Below, one piece after another: positions 4,348-50,062 of a stretch of 64,000 bases of DNA. Origin of the DNA: Xanthomonas sacchari (lineage in GTDB: Bacteria > Pseudomonadota > Gammaproteobacteria > Xanthomonadales > Xanthomonadaceae); contig NZ_CP100647.1 in the NCBI RefSeq assembly GCF_024266585.1, forward strand, positions 2,461,001-2,525,000, in the 5' to 3' direction. Position 1 is the first letter of the stretch; every line of letters starts with the position of its first letter. The notes under the pieces are model-generated. The model made no database searches, was not told where the DNA came from, and saw nothing but the letters and a program-made list of their open reading frames with translations. The translations under genes were made by a program, and so were the position numbers.

Positions 4348-7164
<2,817 letters not shown>

Positions 7165-7179
7165 TCCGCGCCTGAGCGA

Positions 7180-7216
7180 ACGACGACGCCGGCCGCGTGC
7201 CGGCGTCGTCGTTTTC
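7180..7216 (+). terminator. Rho-independent terminator of gyrA
   Basis: A perfect 14-bp stem (7180-7193 with 7199-7212), 5-base loop CGCGT, then TTTTC. It begins 15 bases after the gyrA stop. The remaining ~290 bases to the next gene hold no gene I can support. Confidence 0.85.
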
Positions 7217-7504
7217 GGGAATGGGGCAAATGACGCGGCGGCGTCTCGGCATGCGGCGCACGCGTGCGTGCCAAACAGCGCGATGCATCCGGACGGGGAT
7301 GCCGGATCGCTACTGCTGGGACCGATGCACACGGCGCGTGACGCTCAGGTCGGCACTGGGTCACGAGGACCGCAAGATTGCGTGTCAGTGTGTGTCACCG
7401 AGAAACGCATCACGTTCACTTGCTGCTTGGGATAAGGATGCGCGGCGCGCGTGCGCCGCTGTCACGCGGATGTTCCGCGTGGCCGTGTCCTGCAAGGAGT
7501 GGCA

Positions 7505-9934
7505 ATGAATGCATTCGAACAAACGCAGCGTCGCGGCGGCTGGCCGCTGCGCCTGCTCGGCGGCGTCTGCGCGCTGATCGGCGCGGTGCTGGCGATCGGT
7601 GGCGCCTGGCTGCTGGCACTGGGCGGCTCCTGGTACTACCTGGTCGCCGGCCCCGGCCTGGCGATCGCCGGTGTGCAACTGTGGCGCGCGCGGCGCAGCG
7701 GCGCGCTGTGGTTTGCCGCGACCTTCCTGCTGTCGCTGCTGTGGGCGGCGTGGGAGTCGGGTACCGACTATTGGCGCTGGGTGCCGCGCATGGGCTTGAT
7801 GGTGTTCCTGGCGCTGCTGCTGGCGTTGCTGCTGCCGCGGCTGGACCGGCCGTTCTCGCGCAGGCTGTCGCGCACGCTCGCCGCCGTGCTGGCGCTGGTG
7901 TTCGTCGGCGCGTTCGCGCTGGCGTTCCTGCCGTACGGGGTGACCGAGGCCGATGGTGCGCTGACGCATGCGGCCGGCATGGCCGCAGCGTTGGCAACCC
8001 CGCGCACCGGCGCGCAGCCGGCCGACGCGCCCGCCGCTGCCGACTGGGCCGCCTATGGCCGCGACAACGCCGGCAGCCGCTACACGCCGCTGCGGCAGAT
8101 CGCGCCGGGCAACGTGGCGCAGCTGCGCACCGCGTGGACCTTCCGCACCGGCGACCTGCCGGACAAGCGCTGGGGTGCGGAGACCACGCCGCTGAAGATC
8201 GGCGACAGCCTGTACCTGTGCAGCGCACGCAACCAGCTGATCGCGCTGGATGCGCGCAGCGGCCGCGAACGCTGGCGCTACGACCCCAAGGTGGCGGACA
8301 AGGCGATCCCGTACACCGCCGCCTGCCGCGGGGTGAGCTACTACGCGGTGCCCGATGCGCAGGCGACGGCGTCGACCGCGTGCCGTCAGCGCATCATCGA
8401 AGGCACTCTGGACGGACGCCTGATCGCGGTCGATGCCGCCGACGGCAAGCCCTGCGAGGACTTCGGCCGGCACGGCCAGGTCGACATCACCGTCGGCATG
8501 GGCGAGACGCCGCCTGGTTATGTCTCGATCAATTCGCCGCCGACCATCGTGCGTGGGGTGGTCGTCACCGGCCACCAGGTGCTGGACGGACAGAAGCGCT
8601 ACGAGCCGTCCGGCGTCATCCAGGGCTTCGACGCGGTGACCGGCGCGCTGCGCTGGGCGTGGGACATGACCCATCCGGACTGGACCGGCGCGCCGCCGCC
8701 GGGGCAGACCTGGACCCGCGGCACGCCCAACATGTGGACCAGCGCGGCCGGCGACGAACAGCTCGGCTACGTGTACCTGCCGATGGGCAATTCCTCGGCC
8801 GACTACTGGAGCAGTTCGCGCACCCCGCAGGAAGATCGCTATGCGACCTCGCTGGTCGCGCTGGACGTCACCACCGGCAAGCCGGTGTGGAACTTCCAGA
8901 CCACCCACATCGACGTGTGGGACTACGACCTGGGTTCGCAACCGACCCTGCTGGAGTTCCCGCACGACGGCACGACCGTGCCGGCGGTGCTGCTGCCGAG
9001 CAAGCAGGGCGAGCTGTACGTGCTCGACCGGCGCACCGGCAAACCGCTGGTCGGGGTCGAGGAACGCGCGGTGCCGGGCGGTGGCGTAGAGCCGCAGCGC
9101 CGCGCCAAGACCCAGCCGTTCTCGCTGTACCACTCGCTGCGCAAGCGCGACCTAACCGAGCGCGACATGTGGGGCATGACCCCGATCGACCAGTTGGTGT
9201 GCCGCATCCAGTTCCGCAGCGCCAGCTACAAGGGCATCTACACGCCGCCCGAAGCCGATCGCCATTCGATCGAGTATCCCGGCTACAACGGCGGCTCGGA
9301 CTGGGGCAGTGTGGCGGTGGACCCGCAGCGCGGGGTGGTCGTCGCCAATTACAACGACATGCCCAACTACAACCTGCTGGTGCCGCGGGCCAAGGCCGAC
9401 AAGATGGGCTGGGCGCCGCGCGATCAGGTGCGCGGCGACAGCGGCGGTGCCGAGGGCGCGGGCGATCCGCAGGCGGGCGCGCCGTACGCGATCAACGTCA
9501 ACGCCGGCTGGCGCCTGCCGTTCACAGGGCTGCTGTGCAAGCAGCCGCCCTACGGCGGCATTCGCGCGATCGACCTGGCCAGCGGCAAGACGCTCTGGGA
9601 CCGTCCGTTCGGCAGCGCGCGCGGCAACGGCCCGTTCGGCATCCACTCCGGATTGCCGATCGAGATCGGCACGCCCAACAACGGCGGCGCCGTGGTCAGC
9701 GCCAGCGGCCTGATCTTCATCGCCGCGGCGACCGACGACATGATCCGCGCGATCGACCTGGCCAGCGGCAAGACCCTGTGGCAGGCCAAGCTGCCCGCCG
9801 GCGGCCAGGCCACGCCGATGGTGTATGCGGTCGACGGTCGTGAGTACCTGGTCATCGTCGCCGCCGGCCATCACTTCATGGAGACCAAGCGCGGCGACTA
9901 TGTGATCGCCTACGCGCTGCCGCCGGCAAAGTGA
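7505..9934 (+). CDS. gcd: Membrane-bound PQQ-dependent dehydrogenase, glucose dehydrogenase type
   Basis: An 809-residue quinoprotein of the glucose/quinate/shikimate family. The first ~150 residues form about five membrane helices; from about residue 180 a periplasmic eight-bladed PQQ propeller follows, with repeated AxDxxSGKxLW units such as AIDLASGKTLWD and AIDLASGKTLWQ. The enzyme oxidises sugar at the outer face of the inner membrane and passes electrons to ubiquinone. AAGGAG at 7494-7499 supports the ATG at 7505. Length and architecture fit Gcd, but quinate dehydrogenase is built the same way, so substrate is inferred. No pqq biosynthesis genes are in the window. Confidence 0.85.
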   Translation: MNAFEQTQRRGGWPLRLLGGVCALIGAVLAIGGAWLLALGGSWYYLVAGPGLAIAGVQLWRARRSGALWFAATFLLSLLWAAWESGTDYWRWVPRMGLMVFLALLLALLLPRLDRPFSRRLSRTLAAVLALVFVGAFALAFLPYGVTEADGALTHAAGMAAALATPRTGAQPADAPAAADWAAYGRDNAGSRYTPLRQIAPGNVAQLRTAWTFRTGDLPDKRWGAETTPLKIGDSLYLCSARNQLIALDARSGRERWRYDPKVADKAIPYTAACRGVSYYAVPDAQATASTACRQRIIEGTLDGRLIAVDAADGKPCEDFGRHGQVDITVGMGETPPGYVSINSPPTIVRGVVVTGHQVLDGQKRYEPSGVIQGFDAVTGALRWAWDMTHPDWTGAPPPGQTWTRGTPNMWTSAAGDEQLGYVYLPMGNSSADYWSSSRTPQEDRYATSLVALDVTTGKPVWNFQTTHIDVWDYDLGSQPTLLEFPHDGTTVPAVLLPSKQGELYVLDRRTGKPLVGVEERAVPGGGVEPQRRAKTQPFSLYHSLRKRDLTERDMWGMTPIDQLVCRIQFRSASYKGIYTPPEADRHSIEYPGYNGGSDWGSVAVDPQRGVVVANYNDMPNYNLLVPRAKADKMGWAPRDQVRGDSGGAEGAGDPQAGAPYAINVNAGWRLPFTGLLCKQPPYGGIRAIDLASGKTLWDRPFGSARGNGPFGIHSGLPIEIGTPNNGGAVVSASGLIFIAAATDDMIRAIDLASGKTLWQAKLPAGGQATPMVYAVDGREYLVIVAAGHHFMETKRGDYVIAYALPPAK

Positions 9935-34112: not shown

Positions 34113-34253
34113 TCGAGCCGTCCTTTCGTCGCGGCACGACGGCCAAAACCAAAAGGCCATCTGATTAACAGTCAAGTGCTCTAAGTGGTTGGTTGCACAA
34201 AAGCTGGAAGGCAACGGCAACGGCAACAGCAACAGCTTTCGCGCTTTGCGCGA

Positions 34254-34439
34254 GTTACTTTTCTTTGCTTGTGCAAAGAAAAGTAACCAAAAGAAACACA
34301 CCCCCGGGCGGGCTGCCCCGCGCTGCGCGCGGGGTCCGCGGACACGACGGGAATTTTCGGAAGGCACATCCATGTGCCTGCCGAAAACGACGCGCATCCT
34401 GCGCGTCGCCCCTTGCGGGGTTTTACCCGTCGTGTCCGC
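34254..34439. repeat. Composite hairpin element between pheA and aroA
   Basis: First a perfect 15-bp hairpin (34254-34268 with 34273-34287, loop TTGT). Then a large structure closed by perfect 14-bp arms (34338-34351 with 34426-34439) that encloses three internal hairpins: TTTTCGG..AGGCACAT with its complement, GACGCGCA/TGCGCGTC, and a short CCCC/GGGG stem. It resembles a multi-arm RNA or a MITE-like intergenic element. No protein is encoded. Confidence 0.75.
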
Positions 34440-34461
34440 CAGCCCTCACGGGGGATTGAGA

Positions 34462-34697
<236 letters not shown>

Positions 34698-34807
34698 GGT
34701 GAGGGAGTGGGTACGGTAGTCGTAGCGGTAGCGCCAACGCGCGTTAGCGGCATCCGTGTCGTCGGGTGGTAGTGGACCTTCGGGTGGTCGGACTTTCAGG
34801 AACGATG

Positions 34808-36121
34808 ATGAGCAACGAGCAAGGCTGGATCGCAACGCGCGGCACTGCGCTGCAGGGCACGCTGACGGTGCCGGGGGACAAGTCGGTGTCGCACCGGGCG
34901 GTGATGTTCGCGGCGTTGGCCGATGGCACGTCGCGGATCGAGGGGTTTCTCGAGGGCGAGGATACGCGCGCGACGGCGGCGATCTTTGCCAAGCTCGGGG
35001 TGCGGATCGAGACGCCGTCGCCGTCGCAGCGCATCGTGCATGGCGTGGGCGTGGATGGGCTGCAGGCGCCGCAGGGGGCGCTGGATTGCGGCAACGCCGG
35101 CACCGGCATGCGTCTGCTCGCCGGGCTGCTCGCGGCACAGCCGTTCGACAGCGTGCTGGTCGGCGATGCGTCGCTGTCGAAGCGGCCGATGCGTCGGGTC
35201 ACCGAGCCGCTGGCGCTGATGGGCGCGCGCATCGACACCGAGGCCAATGGCGTGCCGCCGCTGCGCATCCATGGCGGACAGCCGCTGCGCGGCATCGACT
35301 TCGTCTCGCCGGTGGCCAGCGCCCAGGTCAAGTCGGCGGTGCTGCTGGCCGGGCTGTATGCCGAGGGCGTCACCTCGGTGCAGGAGCCGCATCCCACCCG
35401 CGATTACACCGAGCGTATGCTGTCCGCGTTCGGCGTGGAGATCGCGTTCGCGCCGGGCCAGGCGCGGCTGCGCGGCGGCCAGCGCCTGCGCGCCACCGAC
35501 ATCGCGGTGCCGGCGGATTTCTCCTCGGCTGCGTTCTTCATCGTCGCGGCCAGCATCATTCCCGGCTCGGACATCACCCTAAAGGCAGTGGGGCTCAATC
35601 CGCGCCGCACCGGCCTGCTCGCGGCGCTGCGGCTGATGGGCGCGGACATCGTCGAACACAACCACAGCGAACACGGTGGCGAGCCGGTCGCCGACCTGCG
35701 CGTGCGCTACGCGCCGCTGCGCGGTGCGCGGATTCCGGAGGCCGTGGTGCCGGACATGATCGACGAGTTCCCGGCGCTGTTCGTCGCGGCGGCCGCCGCC
35801 GACGGCCAGACCGTGGTCAGCGGCGCGGCGGAACTGCGGGTCAAGGAATCGGACCGCCTGGCGGCGATGGCCACCGGCCTGCGCAGCCTCGGCATCGTCG
35901 TCGACGAAACCCCGGACGGCGCCACCATCCACGGCGGCACGCTGGGCGCGGGGACCATCGAGAGCCACGGCGACCATCGCATCGCCATGGCCTTCGCCAT
36001 CGCCGGTCAGCTGGCGCAGGGCGAGGTGCGGATCGAGGACGTGGCGAACGTGGCGACGTCGTTCCCGGGCTTCGACAGCCTGGCGCGCGGCGCCGGATTC
36101 GGGTTGCGCGCAGCCGATTGA
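34808..36121 (+). CDS. aroA: 3-phosphoshikimate 1-carboxyvinyltransferase (EPSP synthase)
   Basis: A 437-residue enzyme of the shikimate pathway joining shikimate 3-phosphate and PEP; the target of glyphosate. Diagnostic segments are VPGDKSVSHRAVMFAAL near residue 20, LDCGNAGTGMRLLAG near residue 93, KRPMRRVTEPLALMGA and the C-terminal RVKESDRLAAMATGL and HGDHRIAMAFAIAG. There are two adjacent ATGs (34805, 34808); AGGAA at 34798-34802 is better spaced for 34808. A hexanucleotide tract lies just upstream. Confidence 0.96.
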   Translation: MSNEQGWIATRGTALQGTLTVPGDKSVSHRAVMFAALADGTSRIEGFLEGEDTRATAAIFAKLGVRIETPSPSQRIVHGVGVDGLQAPQGALDCGNAGTGMRLLAGLLAAQPFDSVLVGDASLSKRPMRRVTEPLALMGARIDTEANGVPPLRIHGGQPLRGIDFVSPVASAQVKSAVLLAGLYAEGVTSVQEPHPTRDYTERMLSAFGVEIAFAPGQARLRGGQRLRATDIAVPADFSSAAFFIVAASIIPGSDITLKAVGLNPRRTGLLAALRLMGADIVEHNHSEHGGEPVADLRVRYAPLRGARIPEAVVPDMIDEFPALFVAAAAADGQTVVSGAAELRVKESDRLAAMATGLRSLGIVVDETPDGATIHGGTLGAGTIESHGDHRIAMAFAIAGQLAQGEVRIEDVANVATSFPGFDSLARGAGFGLRAAD

Positions 36122-36129
36122 GGGCGCTT

Positions 36130-36153
36130 CCGGCCTGCGTAACCGCAGGCCGG
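36130..36153 (+). terminator. Hairpin after aroA
   Basis: A perfect 10-bp stem (36130-36139 with 36144-36153) and TAAC loop, starting nine bases after the aroA stop. No T-run follows, so termination strength is uncertain. Confidence 0.5.
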
Positions 36154-36319
36154 GGTGCATGACTCGAGCGCTGCGCATCCGGAGCGATTCGCGTGCGTGT
36201 CGCGAACGCGTGCGCGGTGGAACGCGGACACACGGTGCCGGCGCCGTGGCGCATCTCGCCTCCGCGATCGCCGCTCGGCCACCGGCGACCTGCCGCCTGC
36301 CCCCACTCCCGGTGCGACG

Positions 36320-36350
36320 AAAAACCTGCGGCGGCCCTTCAGGCCGCCGC
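36320..36350 (-). terminator. Rho-independent terminator of the S9 peptidase operon
   Basis: On the minus strand, GCGGCGGCC pairs with GGCCGCCGC (36328-36336 and 36342-36350, 5-base loop), followed by AGG and TTTTT. It lies about 110 bases past the end of the peptidase gene. The rest of the 342-base gap between aroA and the peptidase shows no gene. Confidence 0.7.
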
Positions 36351-36463
36351 GCGATTGGCTCGATGCGTCCACGCAATGCCCGTCGGTCAGTCGACCAGAC
36401 GCGCTGTCGGATGCGCGCTACGTGCAGAACGCGATAGCGCGCAACCGGTGGCGACAGTGCCCC

Positions 36464-39271
36464 TCATGCGACATGGCGTGCGGTATGTTGCGCCAGCAGC
36501 AGCGAATGGCCTGGGTAGTCCGTTGCCGACCACGCTTCGGCGCGGCCACCCAGGTGGCGGGCCAGGAAGTCTTCGCACAGCGCATTGAACGACATGCGGT
36601 TGGCTTCCCGCACGAAGCCATGGCCTTCGTCCGTGTAGAGCGCATAGGTCACCGCGATACCGCTCTGCCGCAGGGCGGCGACCATCTGCTCGGACTCCGC
36701 CTGCTTCACGCGCGGGTCGTTCGCGCCCTGGGCAATGAGCAGCGGCGCGCGGATCTGCGCGGCGCGATGCAGGGGCGAGCGGTCGCGCAGTTGAGCCAGT
36801 CCCTCCGCGGTGGCCGGGTCGCCCATCGCACGGTGCTGGCGGATGCGGTCCGCCTCCCAGTAGGTCGGAATAGATGCCAACAGCGTTTCCAGGTTGGACG
36901 GCCCGACCACGTCGATGCCGCAGGCGTAGCGCGACGGGTAACGGGTGAGCGCCGACAGCACCGCGTAGCCGCCGTAGCTGCCGCCGAAGATGGCCAAACG
37001 CTTGGGATCGGCGATGCCGCGCTCGATGGCCCAGGTCACGGCGTCTTCCAGGTCCTCGTCCATCTTGCGGCCCCATTCGCCGTCCGCGGCGTTGACGAAG
37101 CGCTTGCCGAAGCCGGTCGAGCCGCGGAAGTTGACGCTCAGCACCGCGTAGCCGCGGTTGGCCAGCCATTGGTGCATGGGGTTGAAGCCGAAGCCATCGC
37201 GCGACCAGGGGCCGCCGTGCACCAGCATCACCAGCGGCAACGGCGAGGTGGTGCGCAGGTCGCCCCCCTCGGAGCCTGCGGGCACCGTCAGGTAGGACAC
37301 CAGCGAAAGGCCGTCGCGCGCCGGAATGACCACCGGCTGCATCCGCGCAAGCGGAACCCAGGTGAGTTCGGGACGCAGATCCAGCAGGTGCTGCATGGCT
37401 TGCTTCTTGCGGTCATACAGCCATGTGGAGGACGGTCGCGTATCGGACGACAGGGCGACGACCCATTGCTGGTCGTCTTCGGTGCGCGAGGTCAGGCGCC
37501 ATTCGCCATCACCGGCATAGCCGTCGAGGGTTTCGATGTCGCGCTCGATCGCGTCGTCCAGCATGTGCAGCTTGAAGCGCTCGTAGGTCACGCCGTAGGC
37601 CAGGGGACGGTAGCTGGCCACATCGGTGATCATGCCGCCGATGTCGGCGCGCGGGTCTTCAGCCAGCACGGTGATGGCGCCGCTGTTCCAATCGATCGCT
37701 ACCAGTGCGGCGGTGTCGCGACCGCGGCTGTCGTAGGCGTACAGCGTGCGGCCCTCGACGTCGAAATGGGAGGGGGCCGAACTGCGGCCGTCTTCCGCCG
37801 AGAACACCTGCCAGGGCTGCCACACCCCGGCGGCATCGCGCCGCAGCCATTCGCTGCCGCCATCGCGTGTGTTGCGCACGGCCAGCTTCGCCTGGTAGCG
37901 CGCATCCACCACGAAGCCGGCAAAGCCGGTGTTCTCTTCCATGCACTGCATCTCTCCGGTGCGGAGATTCAGCACATGCACATCGAAGAAGCGTGCGTCG
38001 CGCGCGTTCGAGACGATCGCGATTTCTTCGCGCCGCTCCCGGCTGATGCTTTGCACGCCCGTGCGGACGCCGGCCGCCGAAGGCGTCAAGGCGCGCAGGC
38101 TCCCGTCCGAGAGGTCGGCGCCGAACACCTGAAAGTTCTCGTCGCCATCGCGGTCCTGCGAGAACAGCAGCATGCCGGGAACGTAGGTCCAATTGAAGCT
38201 CTGGATGCCGCGACGCGTGTCCCGGGTGATCTGTCGGACCTCGCGCGGGTTGCTGCTGGGCGCGGCCCAGATGTTCATCACGCCATCGCCGTCTGCCAGC
38301 CATGCCAGCCATTGCCCGTCCGGGCTGATGCTCATGGAGGCCCGCGCCGGGTTGGCGAACAGGTGCTTGCGGGGGATGAGCGCTGCGGGCGCGTCGCCGT
38401 CGGCCGCATGCAGGATGTTCTGCATCACCAGCGCCGCCTGGCGCCACTGTTTGCCGTACTGGCTCTTCTGTTGTCGGTAGTAGGCTCTCAGCCGCTTCGC
38501 TTTCTCGGGATGCTTTTGCTCCAGCAGAGTGAAGACATTGGTGTAGTTGGTGTCCCCGGGCTCGCGGCCGGCCACGTCTTCCGCATGCAAGGTTTCCAGC
38601 ACCTGCTTCATGTCGTCGTCTTCTGCCTGGCCCCAGGGGTAGACGGCCATGTTCGCGGCGATACGTGCGTTCATCCAGCCGCGCAGCGTGTCCGACACGG
38701 CGCTGCGGGACTGCATCGGGTCCCAGGCCGCGGCTTCGATGCACGTTCCCACGGATGCGGCCACCGACCCGGGCGTCTGCGCATCGGTTTGCGCGACCGC
38801 CGCGCGGCGTGCCTTGCGCCAGCTGGCGCTGTCGATGTCCTGGCCCGCCAGGCGTGCCGCATGCAGCGCGGCCACGCCTTCCAGCGCTTCGGCCAGGCCC
38901 GCGGCAGCGTCCAGGTGGTTCAGTCCGTGGGTTTGGCCGTTGAGCAGCTCCAGGAGGCTGCGGCTACCCGCGGTGTCCATCGCCATGCCAGGCGCAATGC
39001 CCTGCATCAGGTGGATGCCCCAGGACACACCGAGCGTCGAATTGGCAGCGACCATCGAATCGATCGTGAGGGCGAGCCACTTCGGCAGGCCGTAATCGGC
39101 TTCCCAGCGGTCCAGGTCGTCGCCTTGCAGCAGGCTGCCGATGAAGCTGCCGACCTCGCCGTTCCAGTACAGCGGGCGATGCTCCCATCGCCCGGCCTTT
39201 TCCAGGGATTGCAGCGTGTCGATCGCCTGCCGGCGCAGGTCCGGGTCGCCATGGTATGCGCGCAGGGTCAT
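36464..39271 (-). CDS. S9 family (prolyl oligopeptidase-type) peptidase with unusual N-terminal region
   Basis: A 935-residue serine peptidase. The C-terminal alpha/beta-hydrolase domain starts near residue 650 (LVMLVHGGPWSRDGFGFNP); nucleophile Ser765 is in FGGSYGG, Asp852 in GANDPRV and His884 in DEGHGF. Residues ~300-640 form a beta-propeller-like region with SPDGQWLAWL repeats. Residues 1 to ~290 are Ala-rich, helical and match no family I know; typical S9 enzymes are 650-750 residues. There is no signal peptide, so it should be cytosolic. It starts one base after the thioredoxin stop and is the last gene of a receptor-transporter-thioredoxin-peptidase operon, suggesting it cleaves an imported peptide. 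Confidence 0.88.
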   Translation of the reverse strand: MTLRAYHGDPDLRRQAIDTLQSLEKAGRWEHRPLYWNGEVGSFIGSLLQGDDLDRWEADYGLPKWLALTIDSMVAANSTLGVSWGIHLMQGIAPGMAMDTAGSRSLLELLNGQTHGLNHLDAAAGLAEALEGVAALHAARLAGQDIDSASWRKARRAAVAQTDAQTPGSVAASVGTCIEAAAWDPMQSRSAVSDTLRGWMNARIAANMAVYPWGQAEDDDMKQVLETLHAEDVAGREPGDTNYTNVFTLLEQKHPEKAKRLRAYYRQQKSQYGKQWRQAALVMQNILHAADGDAPAALIPRKHLFANPARASMSISPDGQWLAWLADGDGVMNIWAAPSSNPREVRQITRDTRRGIQSFNWTYVPGMLLFSQDRDGDENFQVFGADLSDGSLRALTPSAAGVRTGVQSISRERREEIAIVSNARDARFFDVHVLNLRTGEMQCMEENTGFAGFVVDARYQAKLAVRNTRDGGSEWLRRDAAGVWQPWQVFSAEDGRSSAPSHFDVEGRTLYAYDSRGRDTAALVAIDWNSGAITVLAEDPRADIGGMITDVASYRPLAYGVTYERFKLHMLDDAIERDIETLDGYAGDGEWRLTSRTEDDQQWVVALSSDTRPSSTWLYDRKKQAMQHLLDLRPELTWVPLARMQPVVIPARDGLSLVSYLTVPAGSEGGDLRTTSPLPLVMLVHGGPWSRDGFGFNPMHQWLANRGYAVLSVNFRGSTGFGKRFVNAADGEWGRKMDEDLEDAVTWAIERGIADPKRLAIFGGSYGGYAVLSALTRYPSRYACGIDVVGPSNLETLLASIPTYWEADRIRQHRAMGDPATAEGLAQLRDRSPLHRAAQIRAPLLIAQGANDPRVKQAESEQMVAALRQSGIAVTYALYTDEGHGFVREANRMSFNALCEDFLARHLGGRAEAWSATDYPGHSLLLAQHTARHVA

Positions 39272-39272
39272 G

Positions 39273-39605
39273 TCAGCCTTCCAAGCAGTCGTCGATGAGC
39301 TGGGCGATCCGGGTCTTGGAGACCAGGCCCACCAGGCGGGCTTTTTCCTGGCCGTCCATGAACAGGATCATGGTGGGCAGGCCGCGCACGTGGAACTGCT
39401 GCATGGTTGCCTTGTTTTCGTCCGCATTGATCTTGCACACGCGCGCATCGCTGGCGTAGTCCTCTGCGATGTCGTCCAGGATGGGCAGCAACTGCTTGCA
39501 GGGAGCGCACCATTCGGCCCAGAAGTCCACCAGGACGGGGCCGGAGGATTGGAGGACGTGTTCTGCAAAGCTCGCTTCGGTGATGGCGGTGACGTGGGAA
39601 GACAT
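39273..39605 (-). CDS. Thioredoxin
   Basis: A 110-residue classical thioredoxin fold with active site WAEWCAPCKQLLP near residue 32, the cis-Pro loop RGLPTMILF, and no signal peptide, so it is a cytosolic disulfide reductase. It is one base from the S9 peptidase start and 53 bases after the ABC transporter. The active site is CAPC rather than the housekeeping CGPC. Its place in the operon suggests that the imported substrate, or the peptidase, needs disulfide reduction; this is inference. Confidence 0.92.
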   Translation of the reverse strand: MSSHVTAITEASFAEHVLQSSGPVLVDFWAEWCAPCKQLLPILDDIAEDYASDARVCKINADENKATMQQFHVRGLPTMILFMDGQEKARLVGLVSKTRIAQLIDDCLEG

Positions 39606-39658
39606 GGTTCGGTCCTGTGGTGACGGAGAAAAGAAACCAGATATGTGCGAAGGCCGAT

Positions 39659-41407
39659 TCAGGCGGGCGTCGGAGAGGGTTCTGCGCCGTCGCCGGCCTG
39701 GCTGCCGCTTTCGCAGCGGCGCAGCGTGAGGTCCAGCACGTGGTCGTGGTAGGAGGCCAGCGATTCGCGGTGCGCGACGCTGATCAACGTGCCGTTCGGC
39801 AACGCGTGCAGCAGGGCCTGGTACAGCGCTTGTTCGGTGTCCGGATCCAGCGCGCTGGTCGCCTCGTCCAGGAACAGATAGTCGGGCCGGTGCAGCAGTG
39901 CACGGCAGATCGCCAGTCGCTGCTGCTCGCCGCCGGAAAGCTTCTGCTGCCAGCGGTCGCTGTCGTAAAGCCGATCCGCCAGCGCTGACAGGCGCACTTC
40001 ATGCAGCGCCTGGCGCACGCGCGCGTCGTCGAAATCCTCGGGCTGCCCCGGATAGCACAGCGCGGCCTTGAGCGTGCCCTGCGGGATGTAGCTGCGCTGG
40101 GGCAGGAACATCAGCTGTCCGCCCTGCGGGTGGCCGATCTCGCCCTCACCGTAAGGCCAGATGCCGGCGACGGCGCGCAGCAAGGTGCTCTTGCCGACCC
40201 CCGAGGTGCCGCGCACCAGCCAGCGTTCGCCCCGGCGCATGCGCAGTTCTGGGATGGCGGCCAACTGTTCTCCGTCCGGCTTGTGCAGGGCGAGGTTCTG
40301 CGCTGCGATGGCATCGCCGGTGGCACGCCCGATGTGGATGCCGGGGGAGGGCGCGTTGACCTCCTGGATGGCGCCCAGCAGATCGCGCAGTCGGTTGCCC
40401 AGGGCCCACCATTCGGTAAAGGTGACGTAGGCCTGGCTGAAGAAGGCCAGGCTGCTGCTGACGGCGGTGAAGGCGCCGCCCGCGCGCGTCACGTCGCCCA
40501 TCGTGATGGCGCCCGAGAGATAGCGCGGCAGCGCTGCCGCGGTCGGCAGGAGGTGGGAGGAGAAGATCGTCGAGTAGGTTTCGCGCGCCAGGATCAGTTT
40601 GACGTTGCGCGCGATGATGTCCCGCCAGTTGGCCCTTACGTCCTCGAAGGATGCATCCAGCCGCTGCTTTTCCTGCGCGCCGCCGTCGTAGAAGGCGATC
40701 TGCTCGGCGTTCTCGCGCAGTTGCATGCCGCGGTAGCGGAAATTGGCTTCCACGGTCTGGCGGCGATTGAACAGATAGATCAACGGGCGGCCGGTGAGAT
40801 GCGAGATCAGCAGCGAACCTGCCGAGTACGCATAGACCAGATAGACCATGTAGCCGGGAATGGCGAAGTCGATGCCCCAGAGCGTGAAGCGCAGCGTGCC
40901 GGACAGGTTCCACAGGATGACGGTGAAGGACGCGGCTCCGACAACCACCTGGATGGGGTTGAGGAACAACTGCAGCGTCAGCTCGATGAACCGCGGAATG
41001 TCCTGCGAGATGCGTTGGTCCGCGTTGTCCAGGCCGCCATCCCGCTCGATGGCGTAGTACGTGCGCTGGCGGGTCCAGGCGTCGACGAACCAGCGTGTCA
41101 TGGCGGTGCGCCACTCGTACTGCTGCAGTTCCGTGATCGCGAACAGCAGCACCATGGAGACCAGCATCGCCAGGATGCCGGCGATCCATGACAGGCCCAG
41201 GCTGCGCCAGATGTCGTTCCACTCACGCTTCACCAGCGCATCCACCACCTGGCCCGACAACTGGTTGGCCCAGACGGCGACGTAGACGCTGGTGAACATG
41301 AGCAACAGCCGTGTCGCGAGAAGCACCCAGCCGCGCCAGCTTTCGCGCGACGTCCAGTAGGGCAGGATCAGGTCGCGCAGACGGGGACGGTGGCGTTGCA
41401 CGTTCAT
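39659..41407 (-). CDS. ABC transporter, permease-ATPase fusion of the BacA/YddA type
   Basis: A 582-residue half-transporter. Residues ~20-330 carry about six membrane helices of the SbmA/BacA/ABC_membrane_2 kind (LPYWTSRESWRGWVLL, the segment DNADQRISQDIPRFIE). Residues ~370-560 are the ATPase: Walker A GTSGVGKST, signature LSGGEQQRLA, Walker B YLFLDEATSALD, switch His in VAHRE. BacA/SbmA and Rv1819c relatives import peptides or cobalamin rather than export. ATG at 41407 is two bases after the receptor stop, giving tight coupling. It would carry the receptor's ligand across the inner membrane. Confidence 0.87.
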   Translation of the reverse strand: MNVQRHRPRLRDLILPYWTSRESWRGWVLLATRLLLMFTSVYVAVWANQLSGQVVDALVKREWNDIWRSLGLSWIAGILAMLVSMVLLFAITELQQYEWRTAMTRWFVDAWTRQRTYYAIERDGGLDNADQRISQDIPRFIELTLQLFLNPIQVVVGAASFTVILWNLSGTLRFTLWGIDFAIPGYMVYLVYAYSAGSLLISHLTGRPLIYLFNRRQTVEANFRYRGMQLRENAEQIAFYDGGAQEKQRLDASFEDVRANWRDIIARNVKLILARETYSTIFSSHLLPTAAALPRYLSGAITMGDVTRAGGAFTAVSSSLAFFSQAYVTFTEWWALGNRLRDLLGAIQEVNAPSPGIHIGRATGDAIAAQNLALHKPDGEQLAAIPELRMRRGERWLVRGTSGVGKSTLLRAVAGIWPYGEGEIGHPQGGQLMFLPQRSYIPQGTLKAALCYPGQPEDFDDARVRQALHEVRLSALADRLYDSDRWQQKLSGGEQQRLAICRALLHRPDYLFLDEATSALDPDTEQALYQALLHALPNGTLISVAHRESLASYHDHVLDLTLRRCESGSQAGDGAEPSPTPA

Positions 41408-41409
41408 GG

Positions 41410-43791
41410 TCAGAGCTTGAACTGATAGGTGAGCGTGAACGTACGCTTGTCGTAGACGGGAACAAACAGGGTCGAGTTGGAAAAGCCGTACAGCGTTCGG
41501 TTCGCGAGGTTCTTCACGCCCAGACGCAGCGACCACCTCGGCTGGGTGTAGGCGATGCCGGTATCGATGCGGGCGCCACCGGGTGCGCTAGGCTGTCCTT
41601 TCCTGATGCCCAGGACGGAGTCGTCCCATGCGCTGATGCCGAAGGCGACGCTCAGGTCGCGCAATCGCTCCGACTGGAAATCGTAGGTACTCCACAGGCT
41701 GACCTGGGTGCGCGGTCCTGCGCCGGGCAGCAGGTTCGGATCGAACAGGCTCTCGCGCTTGTTGTAGGAGTAGTTGAAGATGAGGTTGAGCCCGGGCATG
41801 GGGTTGCCCGCTGCCTCCAGTTCCACGCCCCTGGATCGCTGCCCGTCGATCAGGGTGTTGCAGTTGAGCGCGCGGTTGCGCTGCAGCAGGTTGAACTGAT
41901 CGATCTGGAACACGGCGGCCGACCAGGAAAAACGGTCGTCCACGTTGCTCTTGATGCCCAGCTCCTTGCTCTTGGACTGGGTGGGCGGGGTGGACGACGA
42001 CGACGTGCCGCAGATGGTCAGGTCGGAGAACAGCGGCATGAAGCCTTCGGCGTAGCTGCCGTAGATCGAGATGTTCGCGTCCAGGTTGTAGATCAGTCCG
42101 GCATTGACGGTGTTCTTGCTGAACGATCGCTTGGGTGTCGTCATGTCGGGCGTGGGGGGATTCGTGTACACGGTGGTGAAGCCGGGTCCGGTGTCCATGC
42201 GGGTGTGGCGCAAGCCCGCCACCAGTGTCCATTGCTCCCATTTCAGGGTGTCCTGGAGGTACAGGCCCAGTTGTTCCTGCGGCGAGTAGCTGCGGTAGGA
42301 GCGGCTGCCATCGCTACGCACCAGGGCAGGGAAGGGGTACTGGGTCGGCTGGTCGAAGCGGACCACCGCTCTCGGGCCGTTGTACTGGGTCTGGTCGAAG
42401 CTGTAATCGGTATGGTTGACGCCGGCCACCAGGCGTTGCTCCACCGGCCCGGTCGCGAACCGGTAGCTCAGGTAGTGATCGCCGCTGGTGGTGGTCTGGT
42501 TCGAGCGGCTGATGGTGCCGCTATAGCTCAGCAGCAGGTTGGAAACGCTGACCGGAAACTGGGGTGTCCACAGCGCCAGATCCAGGTCGGTGCTGACGCG
42601 TTGCATGCGGCTGTTGAATTCCAGTGCGTTCGAGAAGGAGTGCTGCAACGTGTAGAACACCGAGCGCGTGTCGGCATCGACGCCATTGCTCTTGTTGCCG
42701 GGCAGGGTGGAGGGAGGCGGCTCGATGAAGCCGCGGATCGCCACCGTGTACCGGTCGATTGGCGTGTGCGAATTGTCGGCCGACACGCCGAAGATGAAAT
42801 CCGTATCCGCCGTCTTCCACCGCACCTCGCCCAATCCGTAGTGCTGCGAACGTCCGTCGTACCCTGCGGAGCTGCGACTGGCGCGCGTGGCCGAGGTGAT
42901 CAGGCGGTAGCTGAATTCCTTGCTGCCGTTGATGGCGCCGGCCAGGTCGAGGGTGCCGGTGCGTTCGGCATGGCTGCCGTAGCTGACAGATGCATCGCGG
43001 ATGGAGTCGGTCGTCGGCTTCTTGGTCACGATGTTCAGCGTGCCACCGATGGCGTTCGCACCGGCGAGCAGGGCTTGCGGTCCTTTGAGCACCTCGACGC
43101 GCTCCACGCCGGCGACGTTGGTCTTGACCGAATTGGGATCGGTCAGCCCATTGGACAGCGTGGCGGCGTTCGCGCCGAAGCCGCGGATGTTGAAACCGCT
43201 GGACCCCTGCGTCGCGGGTTGCACCACCACGCCGGCGACATTGCGCAACGCGTCTTCGACGGTGGCGGACTGCTGGGTCTCCAGCACCTTGGCCGTCAGC
43301 ACGGTGATCGACTGCGGCACGTCGCGCAGATCGGAGTCGCCGCGCGTACCGGTAGAGGATCTGGAGGCGTGGAACCCGGTTTCGGCCTCGTCGCGCTTGG
43401 CGGTGACGGTGACGGAATCGAGTTGCTGCACGAACACGCGGATCGAGCCATCGGAGGCCGACGCCATGGTCAACCCGCTGCCCGAGACGGCCGCTTGCAC
43501 CGCGCCCTGCGCGGTCGTCTGCCCGGAGATGGCGGGGGCGCCGATGCCCTGTACGTCTTTGTCCTGGAACTGGATGGCGGTCCCGCTGATCCGTGCGATC
43601 GCTTGCAGGGTGGCAGAGAGAGGGCCGGCCGGAATGGTGAAGTTCATGGGCGTCGGGCCGGCCTGCGTCGTGGCGGCCGGGCTGTCCTGCGGCTGGGCAT
43701 GCACGCTCGCTGGCAGGGCGAGGGTGAGGGCGGCGTACATCGCGGTGGAACGAAACGGAGCCGGACGGAGCGGGGACTTGATGGGAGACAC
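41410..43791 (-). CDS. TonB-dependent receptor with N-terminal STN domain
   Basis: A 793-residue outer-membrane receptor. Residues 1-32 are a signal peptide (cleavage near VHA-QP). Residues ~48-118 form an STN domain (GPLSATLQAIARISGTAIQFQD cut at the usual spacing), then a TonB box region, a plug (~150-270: DVPQSITVLTAKVLE, VERVEVLKGPQALLAGANAIGG) and a 22-strand barrel ending in ...FTLTYQFKL with terminal aromatic-x-Leu. It looks like siderophore-type receptors, but no sigma/anti-sigma pair is adjacent although an STN domain is present. The GTG start has GAGGA seven bases upstream. First gene of the operon. Confidence 0.92.
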   Translation of the reverse strand: MSPIKSPLRPAPFRSTAMYAALTLALPASVHAQPQDSPAATTQAGPTPMNFTIPAGPLSATLQAIARISGTAIQFQDKDVQGIGAPAISGQTTAQGAVQAAVSGSGLTMASASDGSIRVFVQQLDSVTVTAKRDEAETGFHASRSSTGTRGDSDLRDVPQSITVLTAKVLETQQSATVEDALRNVAGVVVQPATQGSSGFNIRGFGANAATLSNGLTDPNSVKTNVAGVERVEVLKGPQALLAGANAIGGTLNIVTKKPTTDSIRDASVSYGSHAERTGTLDLAGAINGSKEFSYRLITSATRASRSSAGYDGRSQHYGLGEVRWKTADTDFIFGVSADNSHTPIDRYTVAIRGFIEPPPSTLPGNKSNGVDADTRSVFYTLQHSFSNALEFNSRMQRVSTDLDLALWTPQFPVSVSNLLLSYSGTISRSNQTTTSGDHYLSYRFATGPVEQRLVAGVNHTDYSFDQTQYNGPRAVVRFDQPTQYPFPALVRSDGSRSYRSYSPQEQLGLYLQDTLKWEQWTLVAGLRHTRMDTGPGFTTVYTNPPTPDMTTPKRSFSKNTVNAGLIYNLDANISIYGSYAEGFMPLFSDLTICGTSSSSTPPTQSKSKELGIKSNVDDRFSWSAAVFQIDQFNLLQRNRALNCNTLIDGQRSRGVELEAAGNPMPGLNLIFNYSYNKRESLFDPNLLPGAGPRTQVSLWSTYDFQSERLRDLSVAFGISAWDDSVLGIRKGQPSAPGGARIDTGIAYTQPRWSLRLGVKNLANRTLYGFSNSTLFVPVYDKRTFTLTYQFKL

Positions 43792-43869
43792 GGTGGAATC
43801 CTCTGGAGTGGCGTGGGTGGCAGATCGCGCTCAACGGACGCGATGCGGTGTTCCGTAGCTACAAGTCAG

Positions 43870-43978
43870 GTGTTTAGTACGCTTTTCATGCGATCCACCC
43901 CGGGGCGACCCTCCCGGCACGCCATCCCCGTCAGCAGGTGCATTGGCCGAGCATGCCACGCGAAAAGTGTTTGGTACA
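43870..43978. promoter_or_regulatory. Candidate MocR operator: direct repeats GTGTTTRGTAC
   Basis: GTGTTTAGTAC at 43870-43880 and GTGTTTGGTAC at 43968-43978 are direct repeats differing by one base, in the 470-base gap between the divergent receptor operon and the MocR gene. MocR regulators commonly bind direct repeats. The assignment is inferred from position; no other feature explains the pair. Confidence 0.45.
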
Positions 43979-44262
43979 GATGAATTTATCGTGATGTCAC
44001 ACGCGGGTAGGGAGCGGCGCGTATACGCGCGGGTTGCCCATCGTGTATTGAACAGTTTTGGTGCATTGCGACACGTTGAGGTGCGCTCCAAGGCCAGGTT
44101 TCGCCCCGGGTTGGTGCGCCAGACGTCGTCGCTGAATGGGCAAGCCGGCAAGGCGGCCGGCAACTGCAGGCATCAATTTGCCGAAGGCGGCCAGTCCGGG
44201 GGCCGACGGTCTATGATCCCGTGGCTCCACCTTCCCCCTTTTCTCCAGTACACGCTCCGTCC

Positions 44263-45741
44263 ATGCCAGCTCCCCGTCCAGCGAAGAACGGTTCCAAGCA
44301 ACAGCTCAAGGCCGCGCCGTCGGCCGGCCGCGTCAGCGGGCCGCTGATCGACCGGATCTTCGACGACATCAGCAAGCGGATCGAACAGCGGTCGCTGGAG
44401 ATTGGCGAGCGCCTGCCGTCGGTCAGGGCGATGGCCGCCAGCATGGCCATCAGCAATGAAACCGTGCTGCGTGCCTACGACAAGCTGGTGGCGGCCGGCT
44501 ATCTGCAAGCCCGTCGTGGCTCGGGTTTCTATGTGTCGCCGCAGGCCCGCCAGTTGGGCAAATCGGCCCCGGCCGCAGGGTGGGCCGGGCCTACGGCGCC
44601 GGTTTCCTGGAGCCACCTGCTGCACTCGGACCAGCGGCATGGCGGCTCGGCGCTGGGCACGCTGCCCGTCGAATGGATCGGCACCGAGGCGCTGGCCCAG
44701 GCCCTGCAGGCGCTGGCCGCACGGCCGCGCAGGAGCCTGTTCGAATACTCCGACATCGGCGGCTGGCTGCCCCTGCGCGAGGCGCTGAGTGCCAGGCTGC
44801 GTACGATCGGCATCAGCGCGAGCGCCGAGCAGATCGTGACAACGGCAGGCGCCACCGATGCCCTGGACCTGGTGATCTGGTCCTTTCTCTATCAGGGGCA
44901 GTATGTGGTGGTGGAGGAGCCGGCATCGTTCATCCATACCCAGCGGCTCATGGCCAGCGGCCTTTGGGTGCTGCGTGTGCGCCGCCTGCAGGATGGTCCC
45001 GACCTGGAGCAGCTGGCGGACCTGTGCGAGAAGTATCAGCCGAAAGCGTTCTTCTGCAGCTCGGTGCTGCACAACCCGACCTCCACCAGCATGTCGCCAC
45101 GCAAGGCCCATCAGCTGCTCAAGCTCGCCGAGCAGCATGCGATGTGGATCGTGGACGACGACACCCATGGCGACCTGCTTCCGCGCAGCAAGCTCGGCGC
45201 GGTCACGCGCCTGGCCGCGCTCGATCATCTGGAGCGGGTGATCCATATCGGCAGCTTTTCCAAGACCGTGGCCCCCGGGCTGCGCGCCGGGTTTCTGGCG
45301 GCGGGGAGCGAGCGCATGAAAAAGCTGCTGTTGATGCGCTCGGTCGGCTCCATCCATTCCTCTCTGCTCACGGACCAGCTCGTGCACCACCTGCTCACCG
45401 AGGGCGGCTACGAGCAGCACTGCGAAAGGCTGCAGAAAAAGCTGGCTGCCAACGGCAATGCGTTGCTTGCCAAGATCCGCGCCCGCGGCTGGCGGGCGAT
45501 GGAGGCGGAGGCGGGCATGTACCTGTGGGTCGCGTTCGGCGAAGGCGTCGACGCGCTTGCAGTGGCGGACATGCTGCGTGCAGACGGCATGCTGCTGGCG
45601 CACGAAAGGGCGTTCTCGAGCCATGGCGTGGACCAGCACGTACGCCTCAACATCGCCCACACCGACGATGCGATGCTCGATCGGATCGCGGCGGCCGTCG
45701 CCGCGGTCGCTGGGCAGCAGGCGACGCGCGCGAAGGCGTGA
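44263..45741 (+). CDS. MocR-type regulator (GntR winged helix fused to class I aminotransferase fold)
   Basis: A 492-residue PLP-dependent regulator. Residues ~25-95 are a GntR winged helix (IFDDISKRIEQRSLEIGERL, then ISNETVLRAYDKLVAAGYL). Residues ~130-480 are an aminotransferase-like domain with ATDALDLVIWSF, the Asn of VLHNPTSTSMSP, DDDTHGDL and the PLP Lys in GSFSKTVAPGLRAGF. MocR proteins use bound PLP to sense amino-compounds. It diverges from the TonB receptor operon, so it is the obvious controller. A GTG 14 codons upstream (44221) is an alternative start. Confidence 0.9.
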   Translation: MPAPRPAKNGSKQQLKAAPSAGRVSGPLIDRIFDDISKRIEQRSLEIGERLPSVRAMAASMAISNETVLRAYDKLVAAGYLQARRGSGFYVSPQARQLGKSAPAAGWAGPTAPVSWSHLLHSDQRHGGSALGTLPVEWIGTEALAQALQALAARPRRSLFEYSDIGGWLPLREALSARLRTIGISASAEQIVTTAGATDALDLVIWSFLYQGQYVVVEEPASFIHTQRLMASGLWVLRVRRLQDGPDLEQLADLCEKYQPKAFFCSSVLHNPTSTSMSPRKAHQLLKLAEQHAMWIVDDDTHGDLLPRSKLGAVTRLAALDHLERVIHIGSFSKTVAPGLRAGFLAAGSERMKKLLLMRSVGSIHSSLLTDQLVHHLLTEGGYEQHCERLQKKLAANGNALLAKIRARGWRAMEAEAGMYLWVAFGEGVDALAVADMLRADGMLLAHERAFSSHGVDQHVRLNIAHTDDAMLDRIAAAVAAVAGQQATRAKA

Positions 45742-45946
45742 CAGGCGAAGGCGTGTGAGCGTCTGCTGATCGCGTGCCTTGCTCGGTGCAGCGCCTCGCG
45801 CGGCGACGTTGGCAGGGTCAGGACATCGCAACGTCGGGGCACGCCGTGGCAGCCAGCCTGCGTGTCGACCGCGTTACGAAGAGAGAAGGAGAGGAGAAGC
45901 GCGCCGGCTTGGCCGACGAAGAGGCGCGATTGCGGCCCGTCCGCGA

Positions 45947-49972: not shown

Positions 49973-50062
49973 GGAGAGATGGCCGAGCGGTTTAAGGCAC
50001 CGGTCTTGAAAACCGGCGAAGGGTCAAACCTTCCGTGGGTTCGAATCCCACTCTCTCCGCCA
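49973..50062 (+). tRNA. tRNA-Ser (anticodon UGA)
   Basis: A 90-base tRNA with acceptor stem GGAGAGA/TCTCTCC, discriminator G and encoded CCA (50060-50062). The anticodon loop CTTGAAA puts TGA at 50007-50009. The long variable arm is typical of tRNA-Ser, and the T-loop GGTTCGAATCC is intact. A lower-GC insertion starts right after it, so the tRNA may have been an integration target. Confidence 0.97.

Follow-up and report, generated by a model that had tools for sequence, protein, structure and literature searches.

A modular, mobile gene set in Xanthomonas sacchari: a candidate peptide import-and-digestion system marked by a helical domain without an assigned family

Introduction

To our knowledge, Gram-negative bacteria have few known systems for taking up peptides or proteins and degrading them. 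In Fus, the best studied of these, digestion is periplasmic. E. coli SbmA, a protein of 406 aa without an ATPase, is the partner of FhuA in the uptake of microcin J25, and proteins of the SbmA/BacA type carry antimicrobial peptides. Lasso-peptide isopeptidase clusters, of which AtxE2 is an example, are a further point of comparison. The Fus system of Pectobacterium (FusA-FusB-FusC-FusD) and Fus-like protease-associated import clusters have been described (Grinter et al. 2019, PMC6793856), and the main text of that paper mentions other proteases in some of the Fus-like clusters.

We analyzed a window of Xanthomonas sacchari DNA, i.e., the whole stretch of 64,000 nucleotides from contig NZ_CP100647.1 (positions 2,461,001 to 2,525,000). 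Judged by comparison with related loci, an operon in this window appears to belong to a modular and mobile kind of peptide import-and-digestion system. The systems of this kind are marked by a domain without an assigned family, here called the N-domain.

Genes of the operon

Four minus-strand genes follow one another in the order receptor, ABC transporter, thioredoxin and S9 enzyme, with intergenic gaps of 2, 53 and 1 bases, and a MocR gene is divergent from them (Table 1). A first-pass annotation of the same DNA had proposed this arrangement; the coordinates were confirmed, and the Pfam and NCBIfam assignments agree with all five gene names.

Table 1. Features of the operon and its surroundings in the window
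Feature	Coordinates	Strand	Basis or remark
TonB-dependent receptor, siderophore-receptor class	41410..43791	-	PF07715, PF00593; TIGR01783; GTG start, ATG at 43740 also possible
Fused permease-ATPase, YddA/SbmA-related (PF06472)	39659..41407	-	Walker A and LSGG motifs found
Thioredoxin, cytosolic-type, WCAPC active site	39273..39605	-	TIGR01068, 113.8 bits (cut-off 96.8)
Whole S9 enzyme, 935 aa	36464..39271	-	N-domain, propeller and hydrolase
N-domain, residues 1-290 of the S9 protein, all-helical	38402..39271	-	One family by HMM across related loci
S9 part, propeller and alpha/beta hydrolase	36464..38380	-	PF00326 at residues 698-909
MocR/GntR-aminotransferase regulator, divergent	44221..45741	+	PF00392 and PF00155; GTG start, or ATG at 44263
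Divergent intergenic region, 429 bases	43792..44220	.	Presumed promoter/operator, from coordinates
Inserted block with the entire system	36115..45938	.	Between aroA and TonB-family/serS genes

The receptor scored 262.9 bits with TIGR01783, above the curated cut-off of 223.5, and its relatives in the PDB were FetA, FhuA, FoxA, CntO and FpvA. On inspection, it begins with a signal-like sequence; inspection and a hydrophobicity scan revealed no signal sequence in the S9 enzyme or the thioredoxin. In its N-terminal region, the receptor aligns with FoxA and FpvA, whose structures were solved together with a signalling domain. The STN family was not listed in the Pfam scan of the receptor, and no FecI/FecR pair was called beside its gene.

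PF06472 was the best Pfam family for the ABC protein (171.7 bits), and PF05992 (SbmA_BacA) was also over its cut-off (72.9 bits versus 24). The label BacA-like given in the first-pass annotation holds as far as the latter match is concerned, but the former family is the better one. Membership of the S9 enzyme in Peptidase S9 is supported by PF00326 (148.6 bits) and a catalytic triad of Ser765, Asp852 and His884, which are invariant in an alignment of six homologues. The nearest NCBIfam model to the MocR protein was PdxR, at 241 bits and under its cut-off of 320. Among sulfur-related genes, the window's own operon contains thioredoxin only, with neither a thioredoxin reductase nor a cysteine-breakdown gene.

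The N-terminal domain of the S9 enzyme

The fourth gene had been taken to encode a prolyl-oligopeptidase-type enzyme. Propeller and hydrolase make up the later part of the protein; the first ~290 residues form a separate all-helical domain, which had been overlooked. This N-domain had no Pfam match at E 0.01, and no close solved fold was found for it; its structure was predicted with a pLDDT of 84.7 and a pTM of 0.82. The N-domains of related loci belong to one family by HMM. They are fused to thioredoxin (Trx) in seven loci (L010, L023, L024, L039, L091, L094 and L109) and to the S9 enzyme in other copies, including the window. The N-domain ties the related systems together and marks them. 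Since it occurs in two kinds of fusion, to a thioredoxin and to a peptidase, we infer that it may be an adaptor, which would hold the peptide after import and link its reduction to its cleavage.

Gene set across related loci

We read 25 loci with an N-domain (the window, L008-L013, L023-L025, L027, L036-L039, L091-L099 and L109) from chromosomes and plasmids of alpha-, beta- and gammaproteobacteria. A scan of genomes with the S9 protein as query, profile searches of genomes and plasmid searches yielded these loci. In stretches of about 10-30 kb, we scored the components by tblastn, using 45 query proteins taken from the same loci. Of the 25 loci, 24 (all except L025) have thioredoxin, an adjacency that is partly built in for plasmid loci found with a Trx-N-domain query. 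A PF06472-type ABC gene was present in 23 (exceptions, L025 and L095; the copies of L023 and L024 lie in their extensions L100 and L101). A TonB receptor was detected by similarity in 21 loci and by Pfam in L025, 22 in all; it is missing in L095 and in L011 and L092, where the stretches end. The CXXC site of thioredoxin was found in all 17 sequences checked.

At least one peptidase was found in 22/25 loci, the exceptions within the stretch read being L037, L094 and L095. The peptidases are of unrelated kinds and swap between loci. With the S9 enzymes of these loci labelled by subfamily as S9C or S9A, S9C occurs in nine (the window, L027, L008, L009, L010, L011, L012, L013 and L036) and S9A in one (L038). 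M3 occurs in seven loci (L010, L011, L013, L036, L038, L092 and L096), TldD/TldE in eight (L023, L024, L039, L092, L096, L098, L099 and L109), M16 in two (L091, with two genes, and L093) and S8 in two (L097 and, 6.6 kb from the N-domain, L025). Most of the peptidases inspected have no signal sequence; the M16 protease of L093 begins with a signal-like sequence, and the S8 protease of L025 is an autotransporter.

Further genes are shared by some of the loci. Thioredoxin reductase was found in four (L013, L036, L092 and L096) and a Cds1-like L-cysteine desulfhydrase also in four (L008, L009, L012 and L096). The Cds1-like proteins of L008 and L096 scored 515 and 542 bits, both under the curated cut-off of 600, and those of L009 and L012 are 85-87% identical to the L008 protein. 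In L013 (Piscinibacter), a fusion protein of 753 residues (7142-9403), which joins aminotransferase class V, metallo-beta-lactamase and rhodanese parts, adjoins the thioredoxin reductase and M3 genes; it looks like a cysteine-desulfurase/persulfide-handling protein and is possibly a one-protein route for cysteine sulfur. The regulators are MocR in 11 loci, FecI and/or FecR in nine and Lrp in five. A TonB-ExbB-ExbD set occurs in nine loci, seven by tblastn, with the tonB of L091 and L097 taken from the record annotation.

Whether these genes are neighbours elsewhere was one of two checks that the first-pass annotation had named beforehand, and the outcome is in its favour, as they are conserved neighbours in other genomes. 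Paracidovorax and Acidovorax, whose S9 enzymes are 82-89% identical to that of the window, share its gene order, and Stenotrophomonas (S9 62%) has the same order with one extra thioredoxin-N-domain gene inserted. Across the 25 loci, the gene order varies and the set stays. We noticed no biosynthetic cluster within these loci.

Some loci depart from the common pattern. In the Klebsiella plasmid locus L091 (7248-20467), the ABC gene is present twice in tandem, and neither of the two M16 proteases has a clear signal sequence. In L025 (331-10536), the N-domain gene adjoins the TonB receptor gene, with the S8 autotransporter further off and no thioredoxin or ABC match. The Burkholderia glumae plasmid locus L094 (8983-10221) has no peptidase among the annotated genes within 9 kb. 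In Cupriavidus necator pBB1 (L095, 8971-10224), a lone Trx-N-domain stretch lies near an apparent transposase gene, with no receptor or ABC gene, and is probably a remnant.

Transporter controls and phylogeny

As controls, we used the 30 best-scoring other PF06472 genes from a set of 250 genomes, all of the family to which G419 belongs; we take G419 to be Acidovorax sp. Leaf160 and the family hence to be Burkholderiaceae. No receptor, thioredoxin, N-domain or other match to the system was found at any of the 30 control loci (mean length, 3.8 kb). Among 22 system loci cut to that mean length, all but L091 (21/22) matched one or more of receptor (17), N-domain (17) and thioredoxin (16); the queries derive from system loci, which favours the system loci in this comparison. 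PF06472 was present in 138/250 genomes of this family and the N-domain in 5/250, each time beside a PF06472 gene. In the window's own family, the four genomes of 149 with PF06472 are the same four that have a convincing N-domain.

A tree was built from 54 ABC proteins, i.e., 23 system proteins, E. coli YddA and the 30 controls. The system proteins and YddA split from the controls with a support of 97/91. The branch of the 23 system proteins without YddA had a support of 79/78 and was not starred; YddA may be a sister or an inner member of the system group. The window protein sits among Acidovorax ABC proteins. Its best solved relative was 6tqe (E 7e-80), presumably the mycobacterial multi-solute importer Rv1819c, followed by the ABCD family, and no SyrD/PvdE model was among the 25 NCBIfam matches listed of 182. 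The proposal of a BacA/YddA-like transporter, the second of the checks named beforehand, is partly borne out by the PF06472, YddA and SbmA matches and by the grouping with YddA apart from 30 PF06472 proteins, in a tree that has SbmA (a long branch) and the PvdE/SyrD exporters outside it.

Distribution and lateral transfer

The N-domain is rare. Matches were found in six of 198 genomes of the window's family, four of them convincing, in 2/99 genomes of the family of G416, in 2/9 same-genus genomes and in 1/369 genomes of a class draw. Phylum draws gave 5/398 and 6/269 genomes (the draws overlap and include the window's own genome). The last draw (6/269) contained one new convincing locus, L109 (G372), which has the full set, as predicted; the other matches were a spurious one (G258) and four already known.

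The operon had been thought accessory, and a block of ~9.8 kb around it is indeed absent from the four same-genus genomes compared by blastn (L087-L090). Matches stop and resume at window positions 36114/45939 in L087 and 36109/45947 in L088, and likewise, with wider gaps, in L089 and L090; in L087-L090, 62, 76, 162 and 252 bases separate the two flanking matches, against 9.8 kb in the window. The block ends show no direct repeat. The site has no tRNA either; a single tRNA was called, at 49973. Elsewhere in the window, a low-complexity repeat tract (34181-34753) in the pheA-aroA interval opens long reading frames with leucine or serine/asparagine runs, and the match to the sister genome L027 breaks off within it.

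The window S9 enzyme is 88-89% identical to the Paracidovorax and Acidovorax Leaf160 copies, whereas AroA is 33% identical to that of Leaf160. Against Stenotrophomonas, the relation is reversed (S9 62%, AroA 80%). Because these identities run in opposite ways, the block has evidently moved between distant proteobacteria. Plasmid copies were found in Klebsiella, Novosphingobium, Sphingomonas, Methylobacterium, Burkholderia and Paraburkholderia, and in Cupriavidus as the probable remnant; 52 B. glumae plasmid records have an N-domain at >=95% identity. A plant source (mango, rice, Chinese cabbage, tomato or Mimosa) is given for five of the nine plasmid loci read; for the remaining four it is waste water or soil, or no source is given.

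Discussion

We consider it probable (about 0.7), on the basis of gene content and its variation between loci, that these loci encode a mobile and complete uptake-and-breakdown system for a peptide bearing cysteine or disulfides. The TonB receptor would bring the peptide across the outer membrane, and the YddA/SbmA-type ABC protein would bring it across the inner membrane into the cytosol. There, thioredoxin, with thioredoxin reductase in some copies, would reduce the peptide, and the cytosolic peptidase would cut it. The N-domain, fused to thioredoxin or to the peptidase, might hold the peptide and couple both steps, and MocR, or elsewhere FecI/FecR or Lrp, would switch the operon.

That unrelated proteases interchange points most strongly to a peptide as cargo, as peptide cleavage is their common trait. 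Because thioredoxin, thioredoxin reductase and cysteine-breakdown enzymes occur in the loci, the cargo would contain cysteine or disulfides. FhuA, which is of the same receptor class, carries the lasso peptide microcin J25. A sequence of import, reduction and digestion had already been suggested in the first-pass annotation; the swapped peptidases, thioredoxin reductase and cysteine-breakdown enzymes of the relatives strengthen it, and no evidence was found for the proline-rich substrate that had also been considered. However, some of the proteases possibly act outside the cytosol (the M16 of L093 and the S8 of L025), and PF06472 by itself leaves the direction of transport unfixed. E. coli YddA has been described as a drug efflux protein (PMC9728188).

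The siderophore-receptor class of the receptor (TIGR01783, with FetA, FhuA and FoxA as relatives) leaves room for a ferric siderophore as cargo. The receptor and ABC protein might import a peptidic siderophore or metallophore, and thioredoxin and peptidase might free the iron by reducing and breaking the ligand; FecI and/or FecR and TonB-ExbB-ExbD, in nine loci each, would suit such an importer. So many unrelated peptidases, together with cysteine-breakdown enzymes, would not be expected for an ordinary siderophore, and we regard this explanation as unlikely. The system may also serve defence instead of nutrition, as a protective sink that imports and destroys antimicrobial peptides, either host cysteine-rich peptides or bacteriocins. 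The antimicrobial peptides carried by SbmA/BacA-type proteins, the plasmid carriage and patchy spread, and the plant sources of five of the nine plasmid loci are in keeping with this. However, the same gene set is compatible with nutrition, the plant sources are few and drawn from databases with biased sampling, and the cysteine-breakdown enzymes and MocR suggest catabolism; we judge such a role slightly less likely still than iron acquisition. That the genes are neighbours without joint function, spread together as one laterally transferred block, is very improbable, given that the order varies and the set stays, that components are fused, that the ABC group is specific to the set, and that matches to receptor, thioredoxin or N-domain lie at 0/30 control loci versus 21/22 system loci.

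If uptake and breakdown of a peptide is the correct reading, peptides would have a testable route through this set into the cytosol; the set also supplies a marker domain for finding further systems and connects peptide uptake with sulfur metabolism. It may be relevant to how plant-associated bacteria encounter cysteine-rich peptides and to the question of which receptors could bring peptide cargo inwards. Tentatively, and with the odds somewhat against so broad a claim, the loci might represent an undescribed class of laterally moving import machines, by which whole disulfide-bonded peptides would enter the cytosol and be digested in it. Its constant core would be a TonB receptor, an ABC group of its own, thioredoxin and the N-domain, with an exchangeable peptidase and sometimes cysteine-breakdown enzymes; the N-domain would be a new thioredoxin-coupled, peptide-holding adaptor, and the prey in plant-associated bacteria would perhaps be host cysteine-rich peptides.

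In the literature searched, whose coverage leaves most subscription journals and preprints outside, we found no description of the thioredoxin/N-domain set. Fus and E. coli YddA-YddB-PqqL are the described systems that come nearest. Lasso-peptide isopeptidase clusters such as that of AtxE2 are alike in having an S9-type enzyme beside a TonB receptor; as a lasso peptide isopeptidase (NF033523), the window enzyme was rejected (67.8 bits against a curated cut-off of 400). The SbmA/BacA proteins share the PF05992 match and the combination of a FhuA-class receptor with an SbmA-like permease in one operon, but the window protein has a fused ATPase and fits PF06472 better. E. coli YddA is 30.6% identical to the window ABC protein over 555 aa, along its length (E 3e-83), and the M16 proteases of L091 and L093 are distant relatives of E. 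coli PqqL (E 4e-13 and 8e-11). The E. coli YddA-YddB-PqqL stretch has 11 annotated features, none of them a thioredoxin or N-domain gene, and its receptor is not recognisably related by blastp: YddB gave a best E of 1.1, not significant, against the window receptor and four other system receptors.

Compared with what the main text of PMC6793856 describes for Fus, the present system is alike in its clustering of a TonB receptor, a protease and an inner-membrane transporter, in its patchy spread and in its alternative proteases. The words "thioredoxin", "ABC transporter" and "SbmA" are absent from that main text (word search). In Fus, an M16 enzyme digests in the periplasm, whereas most of the system peptidases inspected have no signal sequence. 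A receptor of the FusA/YddB family is not indicated by the above blastp result, a comparison with YddB and not with FusA directly, and neither a FusA nor a YddB entry is named among the 42 PDB matches of the window receptor. In place of a periplasmic M16 protease of the FusC/PqqL type, the window has an S9 enzyme without a signal sequence, and M16 occurs in 2/25 loci. The inner-membrane ABC transporter is YddA-like by both identity and tree, as in Fus-type clusters. Taken together, the system appears to work like Fus, and by its receptor or protease it would be no Fus member.
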